The notes beneath the pieces were generated by a model, which was not told the origin of the DNA, searched no databases, and saw nothing but the letters and a program-made list of their open reading frames with translations. From IMG/VR virus record IMGVR_UViG_3300025314_000114, positions 1 through 21,226 of that record: a stretch of 21,226 nt of DNA, one strand, 5' to 3'. The stretch is from a virus. Position 1 is the first letter of the stretch. The number at the start of each line of letters is the position of its first letter. The position numbers and the translations under genes are program-made. Shown here piece after piece: positions 3,260-16,927 of the stretch.

Positions 3260-3446
3260 TAGGTGCAAGATTGACACGGACATTTATATCAATGTGTGAT
3301 TATTCCCCTACCCTATCGCAACCTCCCACCTAGCAATGACATAGCGCGGGGCAAGAGCCCCACATGGGTGGGGGGCCGAGGCCACGTCACCTAACTTACA
3401 CCTAGGTGAGGGGGGGGCAGGGGCTCGGGTCATGATGTGTTAGGTG
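3260..3446. promoter_or_regulatory. Cluster of six CACCTA hexamers (both orientations)
   Basis: CACCTA occurs at 3327, 3388 and 3399 on the plus strand. Its complement TAGGTG occurs at 3260, 3403 and 3441. The copies at 3399 and 3403 merge into the perfect palindrome CACCTAGGTG (3399-3408). CACCTAAC (3388-3395) and GTTAGGTG (3439-3446) form an inverted repeat around it. About 0.1 copies would be expected by chance over this length on both strands. The arrangement suggests binding sites for a DNA-binding protein. Confidence 0.45.
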
Positions 3447-3682
3447 AGCTAGCCTACCGACCGTTCGGTAAGCGCGGGCGGGGCGAGCGGTGGGGCTATC
3501 CTACGCTTCGACGATTTGAGGACCCACCCGTACCAACCAGCCCGGCCCCTCGGCCCCGCCCCAGGGGGCCCCACCACAAACTGCGCGCACACTTTTTTGG
3601 GATTTTGTAACTCGTTGTGCGGAAAGGGGTTACTGGGGGAGGTTAAAATAACCACGGCCCGCGGTATTATTCACGCGGCCAT

Positions 3683-3716
3683 GTTAATTAACCTGGCCAG
3701 GTGAGCGGGGCCCCGC
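3683..3716. repeat. Three adjacent perfect palindromes
   Basis: GTTAATTAAC (3683-3692), ACCTGGCCAGGT (3691-3702) and GCGGGGCCCCGC (3705-3716) follow one another directly, just downstream of the last gene (stop at 3721) of the leftward block that begins near 5.5 kb. They could act as a transcript-end structure or as protein-binding sites. There is no T-tract on the minus strand directly after them, so intrinsic termination is doubtful. Confidence 0.5.
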
Positions 3717-3720
3717 GGCG

Positions 3721-3915
3721 CTATGATAATCTCCGCCAAAAAGTGTGATGGTATCGGTTCACGCCCTTCATCCCCGAGCGGCGGACCCGAATTCCTAACG
3801 GAGAGAACCACCCCAAGAATATCCCCGTAGGTCTTGTGGCTCTACCCTGAAGGCCCTGACTCATGCCTATGCGAGTTAATGCTACTACTGCACCTATTGA
3901 GGTGTTCCTATTCAT
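3721..3915 (-). CDS. Small basic protein of unknown function, 64 aa
   Basis: The start is ATG 3915, which overlaps the upstream stop as ATGA, with GGAG six bases before it; GTG 3927 is a less likely alternative. The product is strongly basic and rich in arginine, glycine and aromatic residues towards the C-terminus (RYHHTFWRRLS). Residues 4-14 (NTSIGAVVALT) are mildly hydrophobic but too short to span a membrane. The overlap geometry is the main evidence that it is real. It would be the last gene of its block; beyond it lie the palindromes. Confidence 0.5.
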   Translation of the reverse strand: MNRNTSIGAVVALTRIGMSQGLQGRATRPTGIFLGWFSPLGIRVRRSGMKGVNRYHHTFWRRLS

Positions 3916-4185: not shown

Positions 4186-4290
4186 TCAACCATACAGCAC
4201 CACCAGTGCGGCTACCAAATAAGGCATCGCGAACCAAAAGGGAATTGATGCTAAGCCCAACATCACAGCAATTCTTGCCTTATGTGTCAT
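4186..4290 (-). CDS. 34-aa single-pass membrane microprotein
   Basis: An ATG at 4290 overlaps the stop of the nuclease gene as ATGA and has AGGAGGAG just upstream. The 34-aa product starts MTHKARIAVML and then stays hydrophobic to its end (GLASIPFWFAMPY followed by LVAALVVLYG), enough for one membrane helix of about 20-25 residues, with the positive charges at the N-terminus. Its stop overlaps a possible downstream ATG at 4193. Single-pass peptides of this size in phages can be small holins, superinfection factors or toxins; the sequence does not decide between them. Confidence 0.6.
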   Translation of the reverse strand: MTHKARIAVMLGLASIPFWFAMPYLVAALVVLYG

Positions 4291-4751
4291 CTCTCCTCCT
4301 CAGAAGTTGATAAGCCTATACGCTCACGAGTCAGATATTTAACTGCTAGTAGCAAAAGTTCTGGGTCATCGGCAAAACATCCTAGCCCATTGTTGCACCT
4401 ATGACACAATATACCACGAATAGCCAATGTTTCGTGGTCATGATCAACAGGATGTAGATTTTTTAGCGTGGACGGTAACCGCCGTAAACAAAGAGCACAG
4501 CAATCATTTTGTTTACATAGCATGTCGTCATAATCAGCTTGGGAGATTCCGTACCTGCGTCTAAGCCCGAGATCTCTTTCCCTACCCTTTATTTCTGGCA
4601 GCTGTTTATGTTTTCTAATCCATTCCTGTCGTGATGGTTGTTTGTTGTAGGCTTTTTGCCATGCCTTTCCCGCAGGTGATGCAGCCCAACGTTTACAGCG
4701 TGCCCTATCACGCTCTCGTGCCTCTTCGCAAGAGAACTTTCTAGGTCTCAT
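4287..4751 (-). CDS. Recombination endonuclease VII family HNH nuclease
   Basis: This 154-aa protein fits the recombination endonuclease VII family (T4 gp49-like), which cleaves branched DNA such as Holliday junctions. The zinc site is formed by CALC (85-88) and CHRC (116-119). Between them lies the catalytic motif VDHDH (102-106), followed by the family signature RGILCHRCNNGLG (112-124). The segment RRYGISQADYDDML (65-78) is the usual N-terminal lead-in. The first 60 residues are a very basic extension. ATGA overlaps join it to both neighbours, so it belongs to the same operon as the SPFH gene. A role in resolving concatemers before packaging is the usual view; homing activity is an alternative for stand-alone HNH genes. 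Confidence 0.9.
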   Translation of the reverse strand: MRPRKFSCEEARERDRARCKRWAASPAGKAWQKAYNKQPSRQEWIRKHKQLPEIKGRERDLGLRRRYGISQADYDDMLCKQNDCCALCLRRLPSTLKNLHPVDHDHETLAIRGILCHRCNNGLGCFADDPELLLLAVKYLTRERIGLSTSEEER

Positions 4752-5290
4752 GTCTGAATGATTCTAAATGTCCTGCTGTCAGTCTTTTGCAGCCACTGGA
4801 AGTCCTTTAACTTGTAACCGTAGGGATTCAGCGTACCTCGCGCCGAGGCGAGAATGGCCTTTCGCAGTTCCTTCGTATCGTCCACGAGGTCCGCATAGGG
4901 CCGGGCCTCCACATTAAGCGAAACCGCCGCACGCATAGCGCCCCCCCGCGCCGCGTCCTCCTCACCAAGGGTCTCCACATGCGTCCTGACCTTCTCGGGT
5001 AGGATAGTATACTGAAACGAGCCCTGCACGACTACATGCTGGCCATCCGAAGTGACCAGGGACTGCGGGGACATGTTCTCCCACTCGTCTTGGATACCAG
5101 CGGTTACGGCTTCCTCTATCCCTAACGGCCATATCAGGTGAAGCCCCGTCGAAAGCCAGCCATCGCTTGACGAAATTTCCCTGCCCAGTCGCCCCCACGT
5201 CGAAACTATCCCCTTTTCAGAGTAGTCGATAACGACCCAGAAGCGAAAAAGGTCAACGAATTCGAGCAGAAAATCTACTAACTTCTCCAC
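4748..5290 (-). CDS. Phage SPFH/Band-7 (prohibitin/stomatin-like) domain protein
   Basis: The 180-aa product reads as a single SPFH domain. After an amphipathic N-terminus (LVDFLLEFVDLFRFWVVI, 4-21) come the typical opening (GIVSTWGRLGREI, 27-39), a GLHLIWPLG turn (49-57), the central strand pair (SLVTSDGQHVVVQGSFQYTI) and the helical second half ending in a GYKLKDFQW segment. SPFH proteins assemble into ring-like membrane scaffolds. This copy has no clear full transmembrane helix, but the gene directly upstream encodes one, ending in TAG immediately before this GTG start. GGAG lies six bases before the GTG. Its role in phages is not established; membrane remodelling, exclusion or defence interaction are inferences. 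Confidence 0.8.
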   Translation of the reverse strand: MEKLVDFLLEFVDLFRFWVVIDYSEKGIVSTWGRLGREISSSDGWLSTGLHLIWPLGIEEAVTAGIQDEWENMSPQSLVTSDGQHVVVQGSFQYTILPEKVRTHVETLGEEDAARGGAMRAAVSLNVEARPYADLVDDTKELRKAILASARGTLNPYGYKLKDFQWLQKTDSRTFRIIQT

Positions 5291-5446
5291 CTAATACTCC
5301 GTAACCTCCTCTAGCGCCTCGTCTTCGAGGAAAAGCATGTTGTTTTGGGTCTCCAGCAAGTCGATAACCTTAGCAATCTGCTCAGAAATCCCTATGGTAG
5401 AACCCATCAACCATACCATGATAAGGAATAGTAAGAAGTCTCGCAC
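5291..5446 (-). CDS. 51-aa single-pass membrane protein preceding the SPFH gene
   Basis: Translation from GTG 5446 (AGGG seven bases upstream) gives 51 aa; ATG 5419 is an alternative start within the membrane segment. Residues 3-20 (DFLLFLIMVWLMGSTIGI) form one membrane helix, followed by an acidic helical tail (about 21-51, many Glu and Asp). The stop abuts the SPFH start with no gap, so the two are almost certainly co-translated. The pair looks like a split anchor plus SPFH domain. This gene runs antisense to the open frame that extends upstream of the small terminase, which argues that the terminase start lies further downstream. Confidence 0.6.
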   Translation of the reverse strand: MRDFLLFLIMVWLMGSTIGISEQIAKVIDLLETQNNMLFLEDEALEEVTEY

Positions 5447-5455
5447 CCCTCTACC

Positions 5456-5539
5456 CTACCACACTCCTGCCAACCTCGCAACGGCTTTTTTGGCTCCTTG
5501 GGAACTTGACATTCTCGCCAAGTCCCCCATTTTCGTCAT
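5456..5539 (-). CDS. Possible 27-aa peptide at the head of the leftward block
   Basis: A frame from ATG 5539 to TAG 5456 encodes 27 residues (begins MTKMGDLARMSSSQ, ends ARLAGVW) and is preceded by AGGGGG about ten bases upstream. Its stop lies nine bases before the GTG of the membrane-protein gene. It would be the first gene of the leftward transcript. Nothing but position and ribosome binding site supports it. Confidence 0.3.
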   Translation of the reverse strand: MTKMGDLARMSSSQGAKKAVARLAGVW

Positions 5540-5591
5540 ATTTTCTATCCCCCTTGCAACCTCTTTCGCCTTATGTTACCATTCCTCTCGC

Positions 5592-6083
5592 GTGGCCTCT
5601 TCTTCACTCGACATTCGTACTCAGATCCTCCTGGAAGAGGTCGCCAAGCTGCTCTCAAAGGGCCTGAGCCTCGAACATGTCGCGATTCAAGCCGATATGG
5701 ACGAGGAAACGGTTGCCCGCCTAGTCTCGCACGACGCATTTGACGGGATCTTCGCATCCATCGCGCCCCAGGCGCACAAGCGTTGGCGAGAGGCGAGGCA
5801 AGAGGACCTTTCTCAGCGTCGGGTCAAGGTTATGGCGCAGGAGGACGCCCCGGAGCACTACAAAATGCTTCGTCGGCTCGTGCGCGAGAGCGCGGCGTCA
5901 CTTAGCCCGGACTCTAAGGCCCGAATTTTGACCGATATGATCAAAATGTCCGGCGCGCTGAAGGAGGATTCGACTCGGCAGACCGTGGAGCTGAGTCCAG
6001 GTCAACTTGACTGGCTTCTAGAGGGCGACAGGGAGACAGAGGAGGCACTTGCAAGACTCGGACCGAGTCCCAATCGGCGGTGA
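5592..6083 (+). CDS. Small terminase subunit (putative, TerS)
   Basis: From GTG 5592 the product is 163 aa. Residues 10-45 resemble a helix-turn-helix (LLSKGLSLEHVAIQ and MDEETVARLVSHDAF) like the DNA-binding region of small terminases. The middle is a long charged helical stretch, and the C-terminus is acidic. The gene directly precedes and overlaps the large terminase by 35 nt, the normal position for TerS. The frame is open far upstream, but that part lies antisense to the 51-aa membrane gene and has no protein-like character, so I reject starts before about 5590. No good Shine-Dalgarno precedes GTG 5592, which leaves the start uncertain. TerS would recognise the packaging site and load the ATPase. 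Confidence 0.7.
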   Translation: MASSSLDIRTQILLEEVAKLLSKGLSLEHVAIQADMDEETVARLVSHDAFDGIFASIAPQAHKRWREARQEDLSQRRVKVMAQEDAPEHYKMLRRLVRESAASLSPDSKARILTDMIKMSGALKEDSTRQTVELSPGQLDWLLEGDRETEEALARLGPSPNRR

Positions 6084-7683
6084 TGTTTTTAAGCGCAAGG
6101 AGTTGGCCCGAAAGTGTCGGCGTTATCCGGGAGGGCTCTATTATTTCGCCAAAAATATTTGTGGCTTTACTCGACTCAATCCGCGCATTCATCTTCCGTT
6201 TTGCAACTATATCCAGCTCACTGTTCAGCCCTCGGGCCCCAAAATGCGACATCGACCCGTTTCCTGGATGCCCCGTGAACACTTCAAGTCAGTTATCGTT
6301 AGTGTTGCCTATCCTCTTTGGCTTCTCGCTTGCGTGGATCGTAATCTTACTATCGCTCTCATAAGCGCGCATTCGGATAATACGAAAAAGTGGCTGGGCC
6401 AGATACGACGCATTATAGAGAGCAACGGGTTATTCAAGTTTGCGTTCCCGGCGATCCGCCAAGGCGACAAATGGGCCGAGTCGGAGTTGATGGTGGAGAG
6501 GGACCAGAACTTGAGCGGCGAAGCGCAAGCCTCGATAACAGCCTACTCGTTGAACTCGGGCCTCGCCTCGCAGCACCATCATGTGATTATTCTGGATGAC
6601 CCAGTGAACGAGCAGACCGCAGCATCGGACCAGGAGATGACAAACGCGGTCGAGAAGTATATTCACCTGGAGGAGATTTTGCGGGGCTGGCGCAATTCTA
6701 CATTCATCGTGAACGGGACTCCGTGGGGTCGCGAGGACGTGTTACATGAGGCGCAGAAAGAGGAACGGCGAGGCTTCCGCGTCAAGTGGGGTCTCGGCGT
6801 ATTAGGCGACTTCGTCATATCCGACGAGCTGCGCGATTATCCTGAACTTATACCAGAAATCACGCCCGGAAAGCCCATCCTGCCCGAAGAGTGCGACGAA
6901 GAGAAGCTAGACCACATTAGACAACAGAATAGAGAAAAGTATTATTTTCAGTATCTCTGCAAGCCCTATGACGAGGGCCGCAACGGTTTCGACTTGGACC
7001 TTATTCGGGACTTCGCCGAGTTACCTGATGGTAAGTTGCTTTGCCAGTGCCACCCCTTACATGACCACCACCTACGCTTTGGCCTCACCTTAGCGGTCTC
7101 TGACCCAGCCTACACAAAGGGCAAGGAGGGGTGTGAGACATCCATATTGGTGGGGAACAGACAGCCCTGCGGATGTCGCTTCCTGCTCCACGAGTTCGGC
7201 GATCATATCCATCCCAGCGAATACATCGAGCGGGCCTGCTATATGGCTGGCAAGTTCAAGACCTGGCTCCGAGGCTGGGGGGTTGAGTCTGAGGCTCTAC
7301 AGCTCACGCTCAAGCAGTGGTTGGAGGAGAAGCAGAGAACTGGGGAGTTTCCCCTTGACATCGAAATCTTCCCACTCGAATCTCGCAACCGCTCCAAGGA
7401 CGCGCGCATCAGTGGGGCCCAGAATCCCGTAAATAACGGTCTATGGCACAAGCCCCCGACTATGAAACTAGTGGAGGGCCAGAATAACACCCTCCTGCAA
7501 TTATTCCACTGGCCCTACTCACGACAGCGTGACCGCGCCGATGCGTTTGCCTATTTTGAGGACGCTTTTGCTGAGCGCCCAGTATCGGGCCGGTCCGACA
7601 TCCCAGACACCCTCGCGCACGAGAACTCCCTGCGCGAACAGCTTGACATGGATCTATTTCTCTCGGAGGCAATGGCGGAATGA
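6049..7683 (+). CDS. terL: Large terminase subunit (TerL), ATPase and nuclease
   Basis: The product is 544 aa, normal for TerL. The ATPase half shows a Walker A-type loop at MPREHFKS (74-81), Walker B in HHVIILDD (177-184) and the coupling motif VNGTPWG (221-227). The nuclease half shows the RNase H-like acidic positions: Asp352 in SDPAY, probably Glu413 in the GVESEAL segment, and Asp495/Asp498 in RDRADAFAY near the end. It powers DNA translocation into the prohead through the portal and cuts the packaged DNA. Translation starts at TTG 6049; GAGGAGG stands just before it and no ATG or GTG in frame fits better. The stop overlaps the next start as ATGA. Confidence 0.93.
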   Translation: MQDSDRVPIGGDVFKRKELARKCRRYPGGLYYFAKNICGFTRLNPRIHLPFCNYIQLTVQPSGPKMRHRPVSWMPREHFKSVIVSVAYPLWLLACVDRNLTIALISAHSDNTKKWLGQIRRIIESNGLFKFAFPAIRQGDKWAESELMVERDQNLSGEAQASITAYSLNSGLASQHHHVIILDDPVNEQTAASDQEMTNAVEKYIHLEEILRGWRNSTFIVNGTPWGREDVLHEAQKEERRGFRVKWGLGVLGDFVISDELRDYPELIPEITPGKPILPEECDEEKLDHIRQQNREKYYFQYLCKPYDEGRNGFDLDLIRDFAELPDGKLLCQCHPLHDHHLRFGLTLAVSDPAYTKGKEGCETSILVGNRQPCGCRFLLHEFGDHIHPSEYIERACYMAGKFKTWLRGWGVESEALQLTLKQWLEEKQRTGEFPLDIEIFPLESRNRSKDARISGAQNPVNNGLWHKPPTMKLVEGQNNTLLQLFHWPYSRQRDRADAFAYFEDAFAERPVSGRSDIPDTLAHENSLREQLDMDLFLSEAMAE

Positions 7684-10073
7684 AGAAACTAGCATTATGG
7701 CTGAGCGTGGCGCTTATCGGCGTCTTCGCACTGTCCAGCCGCCCAGTCGCCACACAATCTACATCCACCAATTCTATTGTCCTTTTTGCCGACGCCTATG
7801 ACCTGGACTCGACAACTACCATCTACTGCGACACGGGGGCCACGTATCCTACGGGTACAGTAGCCGCGTGCTCGACCGGCTCAGCGGCCGGAGATGGCTG
7901 GATTACGGTCTCTGGTTATGGCAACGTCGCAGTGATTGTGGACGTGGACGCGGTGGACAACAACATCACCGTAGTGGTCGAGGCTCGCTATCGCAACGCG
8001 AGCCCCGTGACTACGGACACGATAACTATAGCTGATGCATTTGATATCATCAGCGCGGCGGGAGTTCAGACGTTTGTTCTGAACATCCCAGCAGATCAAA
8101 TTCGTGTCGGCGTGAGCGTGGCGGCTGGCGTAGAAGGAACAAACGAGGACCTAGAGGTAATCGTCTATCGGTCATTTAACGGACTCACGGCGGGCCTGAG
8201 TTCGAGCGGGACATCCACCGCCTCGGGCTCAGGTACTGCTAACACTGTGGTCAAGTTCGACGCAAGCGGGGACTTGGCGGATTCTCAGATCACGGACGAC
8301 GGGACCACGTTAGACATGACCGTCGCGGATCTTCAGTTCACCAACAACGGCACGATCACGTCTGATGTGAATATGTTCATAAACGCAACCTTTGGCGGAA
8401 CTGGGGTGATGTTGATCTCGGCGAATAGGACACAGAACATTGCCGTGTCTCCAGCGGCCAATACCGATATTTACGAATGGATTCAGACTCTACCAATCAC
8501 CGCTGCTGGGCAAACCACGAACGTACTTAAGTTGGAACTTACGAACGCCAACCATACTGGAGGCACAGTTAACGGGTTTCTGATCGGTGCTATTACGGGG
8601 GATGCCCAGGCTACGGAGGCAGGCATCAGCATTGAAAGTGGGTGGGATGTGGATATTCTCGGCGTCACCACCGACCTGATAATGGGAGCTGGAGCTGACC
8701 GTCTCACACTTACCGAAAATGATGGACTTGAGATTACAGGAATTGCTACTGCCAACTTGGGAAGCGCCGATGCCACGACGCTAAGGCTAACTGCAGATAG
8801 AAATAATGACGAGATTGCTTTGATTCTGAGGGGCTTAGGCTTGGGCCTAGATACATATGAGTTCACTGGGACAACGCCCGCCAACAGGGATTTCATTCAA
8901 GCGAGTTGGATACAGAGTGTCACGGCGGCAGGACAAACTGGCAGTGGGATAAATCTTGTAGTGACAGAGGCCAACCATACTGGGGGAACGCTCAACGGGT
9001 TTAACTTAGGTACGATCACCGGAGACGCCGATTCTACGGAAAATGCCATAAATATCGGGACCGGATGGGACTACGGACTCACTCTACCCGACGACATCCC
9101 CATATCCCTAGGCACGGATAGGGACTGGACAATTGAGTTTGATACTGACGATGGGGGACTGGCGTTACTATCCCCGACCGCCGGGCTAAACGGGCTCATA
9201 CAATTTACGAGGTTTGTTACAGCATCGTCTGGATTCCTGATGAGCCTTACCGGAACGGTTGGGGTGGCAGACGGCGGGGAAACGATTGATGGTTTGGTAG
9301 TAAATCTTACCAATGCAAATCATACTGGCACTGGTAATTTCTTTAGCCACCTGAAAATAGCCCCCGGCGTGGGCGATGCAAACGCCAATATGAACGGCAT
9401 TCTTATCCAAGCTCTAACTGGAACTGTTGGGGCGGCGGGCGAAATCGAGGCCGCAATTAATATCGCTTCGGGGTGGGACACCGGCATCCTCCTCGACGAC
9501 AACCTGACGGACTACATAACGTTTGAGAATGGGAATGGGAGTTTTAGGAATCATGCTAGCCCTGGTTACTACATCATGCCCAACGGCGTGCATCAGGTTG
9601 GTGGGGACACAAATGGTAGTACTCTAGGTGGTGTCGCCAACAATGTCCGTGTTTGGCGAGAGTACATTCCGTACCGCCTTACTGTCTCCAGGATTGTTTG
9701 GTCGATAGAAACTGGTGGGGCGGCAGGGGCTGAGTGTAGCGCCGGAATCTACAATGCTGATGGTACGACTTTGCTGATCAACTCAGGCGCACAGGTATGC
9801 ACGGGAACCGGGGCATACGATATTGATGTTACGGACACTACCATCGGCCCTGGGTTCTACCTATTCGTTGTCACCGCTGATGATGCGACTGTAGTTTGGG
9901 AGGTTGATTCGGATGCCACCCCTAACGCAGGCAAAGGCGCTGCGTACAACGCAACCGTAGTTCAAGTTGGGGATGCTACAAATGTCTCTGCGGACGCTGT
10001 GCTACCTGCTACTACCGGAGCCTTGGTTGGGGCGAACACTAGAGCGACCGCGATTGTCAAATTGCAAGGGTAA
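7680..10073 (+). CDS. Secreted-looking beta-repeat protein (tail fibre/adhesin-like)
   Basis: This 797-aa protein starts with a textbook signal peptide: KK at residues 2-3, a hydrophobic core LALWLSVALIGVFALSS, then a polar RPVATQ region. A serine/glycine-rich linker (about 174-186) leads to a typical fibre opening (VVKFDASGDLADSQITDDGT). The body contains three diverged repeats marked by ANHTG at about residues 290, 431 and 546 (141 and 115 residues apart), each followed after some 30-60 residues by a SGWD-type motif. The last 180 residues form a different, probably jelly-roll, domain. It lies between TerL and portal, with CGGAGG ten bases before the ATG. Receptor binding or carbohydrate contact is inferred from composition. 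Confidence 0.65.
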   Translation: MKKLALWLSVALIGVFALSSRPVATQSTSTNSIVLFADAYDLDSTTTIYCDTGATYPTGTVAACSTGSAAGDGWITVSGYGNVAVIVDVDAVDNNITVVVEARYRNASPVTTDTITIADAFDIISAAGVQTFVLNIPADQIRVGVSVAAGVEGTNEDLEVIVYRSFNGLTAGLSSSGTSTASGSGTANTVVKFDASGDLADSQITDDGTTLDMTVADLQFTNNGTITSDVNMFINATFGGTGVMLISANRTQNIAVSPAANTDIYEWIQTLPITAAGQTTNVLKLELTNANHTGGTVNGFLIGAITGDAQATEAGISIESGWDVDILGVTTDLIMGAGADRLTLTENDGLEITGIATANLGSADATTLRLTADRNNDEIALILRGLGLGLDTYEFTGTTPANRDFIQASWIQSVTAAGQTGSGINLVVTEANHTGGTLNGFNLGTITGDADSTENAINIGTGWDYGLTLPDDIPISLGTDRDWTIEFDTDDGGLALLSPTAGLNGLIQFTRFVTASSGFLMSLTGTVGVADGGETIDGLVVNLTNANHTGTGNFFSHLKIAPGVGDANANMNGILIQALTGTVGAAGEIEAAINIASGWDTGILLDDNLTDYITFENGNGSFRNHASPGYYIMPNGVHQVGGDTNGSTLGGVANNVRVWREYIPYRLTVSRIVWSIETGGAAGAECSAGIYNADGTTLLINSGAQVCTGTGAYDIDVTDTTIGPGFYLFVVTADDATVVWEVDSDATPNAGKGAAYNATVVQVGDATNVSADAVLPATTGALVGANTRATAIVKLQG

Positions 10074-10091
10074 AACCAGGAGGCCGAACGT

Positions 10092-10295
10092 ATGAAAGAA
10101 GCAGTAAAGACATGGATACCGGTAATAACGCTACTCGCGGGAGTTGGCGGATACTGGGTCTATAACCAGGTAGCAGCGCACCGAGAAATTGACGAGAAGC
10201 TAATTTCAATTCTCGCCAACCAGTGCAAGGTGTCGTTAGAGTCCGAAGGTTACACAGTAACAAAGGTCGAACCCAGTGGCGATGCGAAGCAGTGA
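10092..10295 (+). CDS. Small membrane protein, 67 aa (holin or spanin-like candidate)
   Basis: AGGAGG stands eight bases before the ATG. Residues 8-26 (WIPVITLLAGVGGYWVYNQ) form one membrane helix after a short N-terminus, followed by a charged helix and a single cysteine near 45. One-helix proteins like this in structural modules can be holins, spanin subunits or virion membrane-interacting proteins. No lysozyme gene is visible in the window to support a lysis cassette. A weak CCTCG/CGAGG stem (10300-10320) lies between this gene and the next and partly covers the next ribosome binding site. Confidence 0.65.
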   Translation: MKEAVKTWIPVITLLAGVGGYWVYNQVAAHREIDEKLISILANQCKVSLESEGYTVTKVEPSGDAKQ

Positions 10296-10333
10296 CTTCC
10301 CTCGTCTATTGGAACCGAGGAGGTTAGTAAAAA

Positions 10334-10534
10334 GTGCCAGAAAGCGCAAGACAAAAGCGAGCCGCGTGCGCCGATTACGGCCGCGCAAAAGCCGGTAAGG
10401 GCCCTAGGACATTTAAGGGCATGGGCATGAAGAAGTTGCGTGACTTTTGCGTGAGTCCTGTCAAGAAGGCCCACGGCGGCAGGGTCTATAAGAAATCAGC
10501 CTCGTACAAGAAGTCTAGTAGGAAGCGGGGCTAG
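10334..10534 (+). CDS. Small very basic phage protein, 66 aa (DUF3008-like?)
   Basis: It starts at GTG 10334 with GAGGAGG about ten bases upstream. The sequence begins PESARQKRAACADYGRAKAG and contains GMGMKKLRDFC, which resembles small phage proteins I recall as DUF3008, in which an SxxQ(Q/R)AA segment precedes a Lys-Leu-Arg-Asp/Glu-Phe segment. The C-terminus is a lysine/serine tail (KKSASYKKSSRKRG). The strong positive charge suggests binding to DNA or to an acidic partner; no role is established. Its stop is immediately followed by the next ATG. Confidence 0.6.
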   Translation: MPESARQKRAACADYGRAKAGKGPRTFKGMGMKKLRDFCVSPVKKAHGGRVYKKSASYKKSSRKRG

Positions 10535-10744
10535 ATGGCGGCGCCAAGCTGTAGCGCGAAGGTCGAAGTAGCAGTCGCCGGGACCGAGATCACGGTTAAG
10601 GTAGACGAGACTGGACAGGTATCGACCAAGTTCGTGCCCAACACGCTTGAGTGCCAGGGCCTGGCTACGGCCTACATCGCTGACATTCAGCGCCACATGT
10701 TCAACATTTTTGAGCTTTACGAGAAACTAAGGGTCCTGCCCTAA
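10535..10744 (+). CDS. Hypothetical phage protein, 69 aa
   Basis: The ATG follows the previous stop with no gap, with CGGGG just upstream. The protein has a beta-rich first half (KVEVAVAGTEITVKVDETGQ) and a helical second half (ATAYIADIQRHMFNIFELYE). Cysteines at 6 and 40 show no clear zinc pattern. Position just before the portal gene suggests a minor head-module role, but I do not recognise the family. Confidence 0.6.
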   Translation: MAAPSCSAKVEVAVAGTEITVKVDETGQVSTKFVPNTLECQGLATAYIADIQRHMFNIFELYEKLRVLP

Positions 10745-10745
10745 C

Positions 10746-12815
10746 ATGGCCTACCCAATAGACGGCGCGGCTGAAATCCGGCTAAACGAGGACGAGCGCC
10801 TCAAGATCGGCGCGGATTTCAAGAACTGGATCGAGGGTGTCGAGCGAGCCCGTACCAAGCGCAATGTTGATGTCTGGCAGAAGGCATTTGACAACTACGA
10901 GCAAACGGCCCGAATTAAGCAATTCCCTTGGCCCGGCGCGTCAAACGCCCGAATCCCCATCACTCCCTCGCACTCTAACACCCTCGCGGCGCGCATCTAT
11001 AACGCGGCCACAGCACAGGAGCCGGGCGTAATTATTCTAGCTGGGCGCCAGGGCAACATTATCGAAGAGGGCCAGTTCGACGAGGCGGTTAGTTACGAAT
11101 GGTGGGCGCAGCGCTGGGCCAAGATTGCCGAGTGGATCGAGAAAGCTGAAATCGAAGTAGACGAGATGTTGGACGAGCTGATTCTCACGTTCGTCCTGTA
11201 TGGCGATGCGTTCATTTACCTTCCCTGGGAAGTGGAGGAGGTAATGGACGTTGAGATGGGTCGTGGTGGGGAGCTTAAAAAGACCCCCCGCACGCTCATT
11301 GATCGACCTGTGCCCAAGGTTCTTCACCCCAAGGACGTTATTATTGCCCATTTTGAGAAGAGCGTTCAGTCCGCTCGGCGCGTGGGCGTCCAGTGGCTAC
11401 TTGACCTGCCAAAGATAGACGAGTTCGAGGCACAGGGGATCTACACGAGCAAAATGGCGGACAAGCTGCGCGAAAAGCTCGACGCCAAGAAGTCCCACGC
11501 TGAGGAAAGCAAAAAGGTTCGTGGTAACTTCGCTGGGACATACTATAAAGAGTGGGGCGGCTCGTATATGTCCAATGACGAGTTCCAGCGCCAGGTGGAC
11601 CAGCGTATTGGAGTGGACCCCGATGAGCAGCCCAATGCGTTGACAATGGTTAGAGTATTCGCGCGCGCGGATCTAGACGATGACGGTGTGCCCGAAGAAG
11701 TCATCTACGACGTGGAGAAGGAAGAGGGTCTTGTCCCGTACGCCCGCTATAATAACATCCTTCACCGCCAGCGGCCCCTAGTTCACTTCTATTTCGAGAA
11801 GCGTCCGGGCTCGATTTATAACCGGGGCGTTCCCGAGATGCTAATGAATATCCAGAAGATTCTGGACACGAGTGTCAGGGACCTCCTAGATAACAATAAA
11901 GTCCGCAATACTAAGGTATTCGTTGGGCGCAAGGGCGGGCCTCTCGAAGCGAACACCAAGCTCTATCCCGGCCGACTGTTCCTTCTAAACAACCCACGCG
12001 AGGACTTGCAGGCTCTAGATCTGGGCTCCGGTACTATTAATACCACAGTTAATGACATTGCTCTTATGCAGCAGTGGGGCGAGCGTCTCACAGGCGTTAC
12101 GGACTTCAATCTCGGCCAAGAGCGCCGCTCGCGCACACCCGCGACCACTACCCTGGCCCTACTCGAAGAGACTAACAAGCGTATCGACAAGACCATCAGG
12201 GTATTCCGAAAGGGGATGAAGGAGTTCTGGTTCCAAACTCTACAACTCTATCTCCAAAACGGGGACCCCGAAATCCTTGCTAAGGTCTCGGCACAGGAGC
12301 AGGGCGACGAGGAGAAGTTTATTGCCGCCTGGTCAGAGGTCAATGTCGAAGACTTTCGGCGCCAGGTGGAAATACAGCCCGAGATTTCTAGCGCCGCGCT
12401 CAATCAGACGATATTGAGGCAGGAGAAACTGGCCCTGTTCCAGCAGGTCGTAACAACTCAGGATCGGCTCATTGCACTTGCCAATTCAATTGGGGGCTCT
12501 GCCGCGGATCCCGCAATGAAACAGCTTTTCGTCATCTTCGCCAAGGCCACGCACCGCGCGATGAACAATGTGCTCGACACTTTTAGCGTGCGCGACCGCA
12601 AGGAGTTTAATCCCGACATCATCAAACTACTCGAAAACGTAACAAGTGTACCACTGGAGGCCGAAGATGGAGCGACAGAAACCGGACGCAGCAACCCTGC
12701 TCAGGCAGCTGCGGGACTGGTTGCAAACCAGCCTAGTCAGCTTGGAGAGCAAGCGGCGCCTGGCGAATCCATACCCGGATCACAACGCATACCTGGCCCT
12801 ACTCCAGGAAGCTAA
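10746..12815 (+). CDS. Portal protein
   Basis: At 689 aa this is at the long end for portals, nearer the P22 type. The signature near the N-terminus, KQFPWPGASNARIPITP (about 58-74), is shared by many phage portals. Further support comes from YGDAFIYLPWEVEE (about 152-165), acidic calcium-loop-like DLDDDGVPEEV (about 310-320), and the helical wing and crown section with LLEETNKRIDKTIRVFRKGM (about 475-494). The portal forms a dodecameric ring at one capsid vertex, through which TerL drives DNA. The C-terminal 50 residues are low-complexity (Ala, Gly, Pro, Ser, Gln) and coincide with the overlapping next gene. The start is two bases after the previous stop; the Shine-Dalgarno (AAGGG) is distant. 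Confidence 0.92.
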   Translation: MAYPIDGAAEIRLNEDERLKIGADFKNWIEGVERARTKRNVDVWQKAFDNYEQTARIKQFPWPGASNARIPITPSHSNTLAARIYNAATAQEPGVIILAGRQGNIIEEGQFDEAVSYEWWAQRWAKIAEWIEKAEIEVDEMLDELILTFVLYGDAFIYLPWEVEEVMDVEMGRGGELKKTPRTLIDRPVPKVLHPKDVIIAHFEKSVQSARRVGVQWLLDLPKIDEFEAQGIYTSKMADKLREKLDAKKSHAEESKKVRGNFAGTYYKEWGGSYMSNDEFQRQVDQRIGVDPDEQPNALTMVRVFARADLDDDGVPEEVIYDVEKEEGLVPYARYNNILHRQRPLVHFYFEKRPGSIYNRGVPEMLMNIQKILDTSVRDLLDNNKVRNTKVFVGRKGGPLEANTKLYPGRLFLLNNPREDLQALDLGSGTINTTVNDIALMQQWGERLTGVTDFNLGQERRSRTPATTTLALLEETNKRIDKTIRVFRKGMKEFWFQTLQLYLQNGDPEILAKVSAQEQGDEEKFIAAWSEVNVEDFRRQVEIQPEISSAALNQTILRQEKLALFQQVVTTQDRLIALANSIGGSAADPAMKQLFVIFAKATHRAMNNVLDTFSVRDRKEFNPDIIKLLENVTSVPLEAEDGATETGRSNPAQAAAGLVANQPSQLGEQAAPGESIPGSQRIPGPTPGS

Positions 12816-15030: not shown

Positions 15031-15957
15031 ATGGCGATGCGATCTTCTGATTTCCCTGAGTTGCTCGATACGCCCTTGCGGAAAATCTTCTTCCTTTCTC
15101 TCGAAAATTCTCGCCCCGAATACCAGCGCTGGATCAACATCGTTGAGACCAAGCGGGCATTCGAGGATGATTTGCGGATGGCAGAGTTCGGTTCGATTCC
15201 TCAGCACACTGAGGGCTCGACCCCCCTGTTTGAAGACGCAATCGAGGGCACAACGAAGAGGTACGCTCCGCTGGAGTATGTGGGTGGTTACATTATCACC
15301 CAGGTGCTCCGAGAGGACGAGCTTCACGGGATTATGGGCCGGATGACTGAGGGCCTTCGGGAGTCCCAGCGAAACCTGTTCGAGGTTCAGGCATATAACA
15401 TCCTGAACAACTCGACCACAGCCACGACCACGCGGCTACAGGGTTTTGACGGGCTGGCGCTTCTGAGTGCGGTCCACCCGAATCTGGGCAACCCGGATAC
15501 ACAAGCAAACAAACCAACGACCGATGTGACGCTTTCCCAGCTCGCAGTAGAAAACGCGGTTAACACCATGACCGCGTGGACTAACGAGAAGGGCTTCCCG
15601 GTCTTCCACACCCCAAGTCTGGCGATTGTTGATACCAGTGACCAGTTCATCGCGGCTAAGATCTTCAAGAACGCGATGCGCTACGACACAGCGAATCATG
15701 AGGAAAACTGGGTAAAGCAGGGTCCGGACATGAACGGGATTAGCGAGTTTATCGCGTCTCGTTACTTCACTGCCACCAACCAGTGGTTCTTGCTCTCTGA
15801 GAAGCGGAAGCACGACCTGAATATGTTCATTCGTGTTCACCCGCAGTTTGAGACGAGCATTGACTTCCCGACCGGGAATTTGATCGTAAAGACCCGTTCG
15901 CGGCTGTTCACATCGTTCGGTCGGTGGCCTGGCGTTTTTGGCTCTAAGGGATTCTAG
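15031..15957 (+). CDS. Major capsid protein (HK97-fold type)
   Basis: The 308-aa product has the order of features seen in capsid proteins related to Mu gpT: an N-terminal acidic segment, VGGYIITQVLREDEL (about 89-103), a long spine-helix region TEGLRESQRNLFEVQAYNIL (about 111-130), the DGLALLSAVHP motif (about 147-157), and a beta-rich C-terminus (DFPTGNLIVKTRSRLF). It assembles the icosahedral shell. GGAGG precedes the ATG by about nine bases, consistent with high expression. The decoration-like gene lies just upstream. Confidence 0.88.
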   Translation: MAMRSSDFPELLDTPLRKIFFLSLENSRPEYQRWINIVETKRAFEDDLRMAEFGSIPQHTEGSTPLFEDAIEGTTKRYAPLEYVGGYIITQVLREDELHGIMGRMTEGLRESQRNLFEVQAYNILNNSTTATTTRLQGFDGLALLSAVHPNLGNPDTQANKPTTDVTLSQLAVENAVNTMTAWTNEKGFPVFHTPSLAIVDTSDQFIAAKIFKNAMRYDTANHEENWVKQGPDMNGISEFIASRYFTATNQWFLLSEKRKHDLNMFIRVHPQFETSIDFPTGNLIVKTRSRLFTSFGRWPGVFGSKGF

Positions 15958-15970
15958 GGGGAGGTGACGA

Positions 15971-16927
15971 ATGCCTTTCACTAACTTTCAGAATGGCGCC
16001 ACCTCCTTCGGGATTCCCCAGTTTGGCGGCGGGCCCTGGCTCGGTGTTCCTAACCCTGCCACCCCCGGCAAGGTTCTCTTCGTAGACGGCACGAATGGGT
16101 CAGATGAGTTTGACGGCACTGCCGAGCACCCAGTCCAGACGATTCAGCAAGCAGTGGATCTCTCGACCAGCGGAGCGGGCGATGTCATTCTCGTCTATCC
16201 TGGCACCTACGTCGAAACTGTCACCGTTACGTCTAAGGACTACGTGACCATCATGGGCGTTCGCTCGGGTTACGGTAGGCCGGACGTGGAGCCCGCTAGT
16301 GGCCGTGCCCTGTTTGTGGATAACTCACAGGGCGTGGTCGTTAGGAGTCTTAGGTTCCGGGCTCGGGCAAGTGCTGTGGCTGTGCGGCAGGAAGGAAACG
16401 GGTTCTTGTACGAGGACTGCGTTTTCGACGGTCGTACTGGCGATAGCGGTCTGCTCCAACTTGTTGGCGATGCGACTGACGATAGTTTCACAGCGTCAGA
16501 AGGTGCGGTTGTGAATTGCCTCTTCAGGGACGGCAATACGGATGCGCTGATTATGCAGCATGCGGATGCCCCAAATGGAGTTGGCACGACTCACAATCAA
16601 ATCCTCTACAATCGCTTCATCGACAACACCGGTGACGATATTGCTACTGCGGCTGGAGCGTCGGGGGGCGGGGCTGGTATTTGCCAGGATGTTGTAATCT
16701 ATGGCAACCAGTTCGTCTCAATCGACAAGGCGGTCTATCTCGATATGGACCAGGCTAGTTTCTCGGGCGGGGATGAGGCTACGAATAGTGGCTTAATCTC
16801 TGGCAATTACTTCGGAGACGATGCGGCGCTCGACGCGACTAAGATTGACATCTCGGGCACGAGCTTCCGTTTCGTTGGCAACTACAACGCGATTGGGGTG
16901 GTTGACGGTTCCACGTTCGATAACTAA
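15971..16927 (+). CDS. Right-handed parallel beta-helix protein (pectate-lyase-like fold)
   Basis: The 318-aa protein has the opening VLFVDGTNGSDEFDGTAEHP (about 35-54) and TIQQAVDLS, the usual start of DUF1565-type beta-helix proteins, followed by YPGTYVETVTV and repeating strands rich in Asn, Gly and Asp (VRSLRFRARA, YEDCVFDG, VNCLFRDGNTD, NQILYNRFIDN, DVVIYGNQFVS, ISGNYFGDD). There is no signal peptide. GGGAGG lies six bases before the ATG. Directly after the capsid gene it may decorate the head or form a fibre; carbohydrate binding or cleavage is an inference from the fold. Confidence 0.8.
   Translation: MPFTNFQNGATSFGIPQFGGGPWLGVPNPATPGKVLFVDGTNGSDEFDGTAEHPVQTIQQAVDLSTSGAGDVILVYPGTYVETVTVTSKDYVTIMGVRSGYGRPDVEPASGRALFVDNSQGVVVRSLRFRARASAVAVRQEGNGFLYEDCVFDGRTGDSGLLQLVGDATDDSFTASEGAVVNCLFRDGNTDALIMQHADAPNGVGTTHNQILYNRFIDNTGDDIATAAGASGGGAGICQDVVIYGNQFVSIDKAVYLDMDQASFSGGDEATNSGLISGNYFGDDAALDATKIDISGTSFRFVGNYNAIGVVDGSTFDN

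Follow-up and report, generated by a model that had tools for sequence, protein, structure and literature searches.

A fibre-like phage protein with a predicted Sec-type export signal, encoded in the structural operon between the terminase and portal genes

P0001 is a gene on a 21,226-nucleotide stretch of viral DNA (IMG/VR record IMGVR_UViG_3300025314_000114, positions 1 to 21,226; hereafter the window) and encodes a 797-amino-acid protein between the genes for the terminase large subunit (TerL) and the portal. Comparison with its relatives shows that a predicted export-type N-terminus is conserved on fibre-like proteins lying inside the head operons of unrelated phages. The reading that we favour, at about even confidence, is that P0001 is a fibre-like accessory protein that is made late, exported by Sec and active outside the cytoplasm. 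An earlier interpretation made from the letters of the window alone (the sequence-only reading) had placed a 797-residue open reading frame (ORF) with a Sec-type export signal between TerL and portal; the coordinates and the family matches of TerL and portal agree with this placement, and the signal is retained in every relative with an N-terminus, across unrelated phage backbones. The gene and its signal lie as follows:

7680..10073, plus strand: predicted exported fibre-like gene (P0001), an ORF of 797 amino acids with an N-terminal Sec-type signal peptide; relatives found
7680..7757, plus strand: signal peptide region, residues 1-26, called by the n/h/c-region rule; the exact cleavage site is uncertain, with several options

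The N-terminus of P0001, MKKLALWLSVALIGVFALSSRPVATQ, has the n-region, h-region and small residues at -3 and -1 of a Sec/signal peptidase I substrate, with a charge of +2 in the n-region and a mean hydropathy of 2.53 over the 15 residues of the h-region, and the AlphaFold model of the full protein places an N-terminal helix at residues 2-19. Signals were called by a home-made rule rather than SignalP, and the call also leans on conservation in relatives. The rule requires a net positive n-region, an uncharged h-region of 9-16 residues with a mean Kyte-Doolittle hydropathy of at least 1.8, A, G or S at -1, and either a small or an aliphatic residue at -3; it was run on all relatives and on every ORF of at least 100 amino acids in 14 loci, allowing any in-frame start in the first 60 codons. 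All 11 relatives in which the N-terminus is present carry a signal-like N-terminus, and their candidate cleavage sites include the classical types ASA/Q, SWA/Q, SLA/Q and AMA/A (the slash marks the cut), whereas L029 has a long hydrophobic segment with no convincing cleavage site. In the control, 13 of the 155 ORFs of the same loci passed: all nine complete family members, L013c (described below) and three antisense or spurious-looking frames. The chance of such a concentration, calculated by hand, is about 2e-13 if ORFs are treated as independent, which related sequences are not. A homologue lacking the hydrophobic N-terminus, which the sequence-only reading had named as evidence that would speak against export, was not found among the repeat-bearing relatives. 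Since the signal is kept by relatives in quite different phages, P0001 probably acts outside the host cytoplasm, and the "exported" half of the earlier interpretation is supported by this conservation.

The relatives are few, and all come from metagenomic contigs, several of them fragmentary. Loci L002 and L003 show zero DNA differences across the shared gene and represent the same virus population; the diverged relatives are those of L005, L013, L014 (cut at its 5' end), L015/L016, L017, L019, L029, L036, L042 and L043. An SU10-type portal and a phrog_38 terminase are found in the window, L005 and L014, and more distantly in L015. L017 combines a phrog_3717 terminase, a phrog_156 portal and a phrog_14242 capsid protein, and L036 has the same terminase type; the L013 portal is phrog_113, L042 carries a phrog_10963 portal and a protease-capsid fusion, L043 has a lambda-type phrog_21 portal with a phrog_29 capsid protein, and L029 has a phrog_207 protease. 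The position of the gene also varies. The claim that it interrupts the terminase-portal order holds for the window and for L005, where the relative likewise lies between TerL and portal, but not elsewhere: in L013, L015, L017, L019, L036, L042 and L043 it lies 3' of the capsid gene, or of what is likely to be one, with no more than two small ORFs in between, and in the related L006 the portal directly follows TerL. The repeat profile found no match in the TerL relatives L006 and L023-L026 (contigs that are mostly fragments) and, given also the adjacency in L006, the gene appears to be accessory. Searches with Pfam returned no named family for P0001 and those with PHROG only weak matches of unknown or doubtful meaning; tblastn gave no match in cultured phages when the query was full-length P0001, and none in plasmids when it was L013b.

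In L013, three consecutive genes match the three parts of P0001 in the same order, each with its own signal peptide. The parts of P0001 are:

7791..8174, plus strand: N-terminal beta domain, residues 38-165; Cys50/Cys64 conserved in L013a
8232..8318, plus strand: fibre-shaft-like motif GTANTVVKFDASGDLADSQITDDGTTLDM, about residues 185-213, recognised from its sequence
8445..8660, plus strand: repeat 1, ANHTG at residue 290 and GWD at 321
8868..9083, plus strand: repeat 2, ANHTG at 431 and GWD at 462
9192..9491, plus strand: repeat 3, more diverged, ANHTG at 546 and GWD at 598
9516..10070, plus strand: C-terminal domain of beta-sandwich type, residues 613-797; L013c keeps Cys686/Cys707; homologous to an Anabaena phage A-4L capsid protein

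L013a (7920-8405) aligns with residues 38-163 at 39% identity (E=1e-14), L013b (8405-10042) corresponds to the repeat part, and L013c (10066-10983) aligns with residues 613-796 at 41% identity (E=1e-31). Both cysteine pairs are kept in these alignments, 50/64 in L013a and 686/707 in L013c. The three ANHTG/GWD repeats and the distinct C-terminal domain described by the sequence-only reading were thus recovered, the former at the residues listed and the latter as a gene of its own; ANHTG occurs at all in just 15 of 20,000 shuffles of P0001. This gene-by-gene match makes P0001 look as if three modules, each exportable on its own, had been fused, and it shows that the N-terminal beta domain, the repeat/shaft part and the C-terminal beta-sandwich can each exist as a separate protein bearing a predicted signal. 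A 76-amino-acid membrane protein encoded 3' of the L013 trio is homologous to a 67-amino-acid ORF of the window (40% over 42 amino acids, E=1e-11), so that the neighbourhood of P0001 looks like one held in common with the unrelated phage L013.

The fibre-like character of the family is based on several members. The shaft motif GTANTVVKFDASGDLADSQITDDGTTLDM resembles tail-fibre motifs; the segment DPTADRT...LPNA, present in L013b and L013c, is matched by fibres from both Pelagibacter phages and cyanophages, and L013b also has a tail-fibre PHROG match. The C-terminus of L029 is a phage depolymerase C-terminal domain (Phage_depo_C, above the Pfam cut-off), and the C-terminal domain of L015 also occurs in a 201-amino-acid protein of Pseudomonas phage Rollin, which is encoded beside a tail fibre and has no signal peptide. 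Among the best matches of the P0001 C-terminal domain in a viral fold library are many fibre-like and collagen-like phage proteins, the model used being of low confidence. Similarity to fibre modules is therefore established through L013b, L029 and the C-terminal fold, P0001 itself having no Pfam hit. The AlphaFold monomer model of full P0001 has a predicted local distance difference test (pLDDT) score of 40 and is too poor to use past the N-terminal helix.

The C-terminal domain was modelled as all-beta, again with low confidence (mean pLDDT 46), and for this reason a fold match was trusted only if the sequences agreed as well. Its best Foldseek match in the PDB is chain Z of 9jwb, the capsid asymmetric unit of Anabaena phage A-4L, which is ORF25L; with a VIA Z of 6.7 it ranked third in a group of tied folds, and the other matches, at Z around 5-7, are to GOLD, carbohydrate-binding module and lectin folds. 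ORF25L shares 29% identity over 151 amino acids with L013c, and it scored best among the 24 A-4L proteins compared with L013c and with the window copy alike. Its score lies 11.5 standard deviations above shuffles for L013c and 4.8 for the window copy, the latter being equalled by the best of 500 shuffles. The comparison of hidden Markov models for the P0001 domain and ORF25L gave a probability of 1.4, and ORF25L was not retrieved by phmmer or hmmsearch of the domain against PDB sequences. Because the window copy is clearly homologous to L013c, the link reaches the window domain also, and on these alignments it is a homologue of ORF25L. The A-4L protein differs in being a single domain, with no signal peptide, shaft, repeats or cysteine pair 686/707; absence of the pair from a leaderless protein is as expected if it serves an oxidising compartment.

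The context in the window indicates how P0001 would be expressed. Its main features are:

6049..7683, plus strand: TerL, phrog_38 match (1e-53); shares 4 nucleotides with the P0001 start
7665..7669, plus strand: ribosome-binding-site-like GGAGG, 10 nucleotides 5' of the P0001 ATG and within the 3' end of TerL
10092..10295, plus strand: 67-amino-acid protein with a single transmembrane segment at its N-terminus, which may be a partner of P0001; homologue 3' of the three predicted exported L013 genes
10746..12815, plus strand: portal of SU10 type, SU10_portal PF23899 (8e-17)
15031..15957, plus strand: major capsid protein, PF25209 (1.6e-7)

The P0001 start codon overlaps the TerL stop in the sequence ATGA, which together with GGAGG makes the start credible and the gene one packed into the structural operon; a chance ORF or a misread start is ruled out by the ribosome-binding site, the overlap and the conservation. 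In most family members the start codon likewise overlaps or abuts the preceding gene. No promoter (sigma-70-type scan) or terminator above chance, as judged against shuffles, was found in 5000-11500, and P0001 thus shows no sign of the promoter and terminator of its own that would mark an autonomous phage "moron".

Several neighbouring genes are recorded here in their own right. Between the 67-amino-acid membrane ORF and the portal, the window encodes a very basic 66-amino-acid protein with a GTG start and no family match (10334-10534, plus strand). In L005, a 123-amino-acid coiled-coil-like protein starting MLTIILLLLLQPPQP lies directly 3' of the fibre gene (3374-3745, plus strand) and is a candidate for another exported protein encoded between TerL and portal. 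The terminase-portal interval of a different phage lineage contains small membrane ORFs (L017 2637-2924; L036 1991-2257), and membrane proteins thus recur at this place. Directly 3' of the capsid gene, the window has a 318-amino-acid DUF1565/beta-helix protein with no signal peptide (15971-16927, plus strand), and a similar gene lies 3' of the capsid region in L006. An SPFH/Band 7 (stomatin-prohibitin) domain protein is encoded on the minus strand just 5' of the structural genes, at 4748-5290 (PF01145, 2e-11); a Recombination endonuclease VII is encoded on the minus strand at 4287-4751 (PF02945, 5e-19).

According to the mechanism that we propose, ribosomes ending TerL would restart on P0001, the product would be exported by SecYEG, and signal peptidase would trim some 20-26 residues. 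Folding would then take place outside the cytoplasm, P0001 probably forming a trimer with both cysteine pairs oxidised and perhaps having the 67-amino-acid membrane protein as partner. It would build up in the periplasm or wall, or be secreted, acting at or outside the envelope and being freed at lysis. Most likely it would bind surface sugars or receptors, so that fewer progeny re-adsorb to debris and spent cells, or late superinfection is limited; this last step is the least certain one. An envelope-side or released protein limiting re-adsorption or superinfection fits the export signal, the accessory distribution and the late timing, and superinfection exclusion, which the sequence-only reading had suggested together with receptor masking by a coat on the host surface, is only one option among these. 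A number of points weigh against this proposal. The signal call was made without SignalP and cleavage is predicted only, while the hydrophobic segment of L029 may be retained as an anchor. Neither a lipobox nor a sortase motif nor an autotransporter anchor was recognised in P0001, and in a diderm host the cleaved product would consequently remain periplasmic until lysis. A search of membrane and lipoprotein genes in related contigs gave no clue to the host, and hence none to a monoderm or diderm envelope. (A lipoprotein-like ORF with no Pfam match, MKRTLIALLLVLGAFAMAC, was seen at L059 10535-10951, plus strand, on the phage contig that also carries the L015 relative.) Late expression comes late for classical superinfection exclusion, the gene's usual location 3' of the capsid gene hints at the particle, and the homology of the C-terminal domain to a capsid-associated protein suggests a possible link to the virion.

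These last points lead to a reading that we regard as tentative and clearly less probable, in which P0001 is a head fibre or decoration protein that is exported by Sec, folds and forms its disulfides in the periplasm, and is captured by capsids through its C-terminal domain at lysis. The homology to chain Z in the A-4L capsid structure speaks for it, as do the position within the head module (mostly directly after the capsid gene), the similarity of the shaft to Pelagibacter phage and cyanophage fibres, the depolymerase C-terminal domain of L029 and the many fibre-like or collagen-like matches in the viral fold library. However, the A-4L and Rollin homologues of the domain carry no signal peptide, the structural model has a mean pLDDT of only 46, its fold type is common at phage fibre tips and need not bind capsids, and no tailed phage is known to us in which an exported fibre joins the particle after lysis. 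The general form of this idea, that some tailed phages fit Sec-exported fibres, folded and disulfide-bonded outside the cytoplasm, onto progeny capsids after lysis and so complete their maturation outside the cell, appears to us somewhat less likely still. If the hydrophobic N-terminus instead served an ordinary, unexported fibre as an assembly helix or, as the sequence-only reading had offered as its alternative, as a virion anchor, the operon position, the fibre-like sequence and the L029 segment would be accounted for. Nevertheless, all members show the full n/h/c architecture with classical sites (ASA/Q, SWA/Q, SLA/Q), the signal character is kept although the sequences differ, and the cysteines are paired. 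The anchor is weakened above all because three separate L013 genes each carry one signal peptide; we consider it improbable, and of the envelope-side, post-lysis particle and anchor readings it fits worst.

The bacterial counterparts of the repeat raise a further alternative, namely that P0001 is a surface adhesin of the lysogenic-conversion type, taken over from the secreted surface proteins that bacteria such as Patescibacteria make, and serving the host cell rather than the infection. A first genome scan with one repeat profile gave no match; a second found the repeat in one Candidatus Woesebacteria contig, beside signal-bearing repeat proteins. Of 380 sampled Patescibacteria genomes, 3 contain it, one as a 6481-amino-acid open frame opening with a signal peptide, and the ANHTG...GWD repeat is thus also part of predicted bacterial extracellular proteins. 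The common repeat and the accessory distribution are consistent with such an adhesin, yet so small a share of genomes argues against it. Moreover, the gene starts overlap structural genes and no promoter of its own is apparent, so that expression should be late and lytic, and no sign of temperate phages turned up, although none was sought. We give this alternative little credence.

Export signals on fibre-like proteins from the head operons of several unrelated phages have consequences beyond P0001. Proteins of the tailed-phage particle are assumed to assemble in the cytoplasm, and the family implies that either late operons commonly also make envelope-side or secreted managers of adsorption at lysis, or the particle is partly completed extracellularly. 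The family also links phage fibres to Patescibacteria surface proteins. A limited search of open-access literature turned up no account of this protein group, or of head operons that encode exported fibre proteins.

Known systems resemble P0001 in part. Phage tail and head fibres and collagen-like fibre proteins have the same shaft-like motifs, repeat-rich beta sequence and C-terminal beta-sandwich, but they belong to the particle and, to our knowledge, have no export signal. The large secreted repeat proteins of Patescibacteria are of the same ANHTG...GWD type, one of them with a signal peptide; unlike P0001 they lie on bacterial contigs and not amid phage head genes, and one is far larger. 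A trimeric autotransporter adhesin would carry a YadA-type C-terminal anchor, whereas P0001 matches no Pfam family up to E 0.1 and ends in the A-4L-like domain. T5 Llp and phi80/N15 Cor are exported phage proteins that block receptors, and lambda Lom is encoded among late structural genes. These proteins are phage-encoded and exported, as predicted for P0001, but they are small lipoproteins or outer-membrane proteins and not fibre-like, and P0001 has no lipobox with a cysteine at +1, its first cysteine being residue 50. PblA and PblB of Streptococcus phage SM1 are of fibre type and can act on the host surface, which they reach by release; in contrast to P0001, they have no signal peptide.

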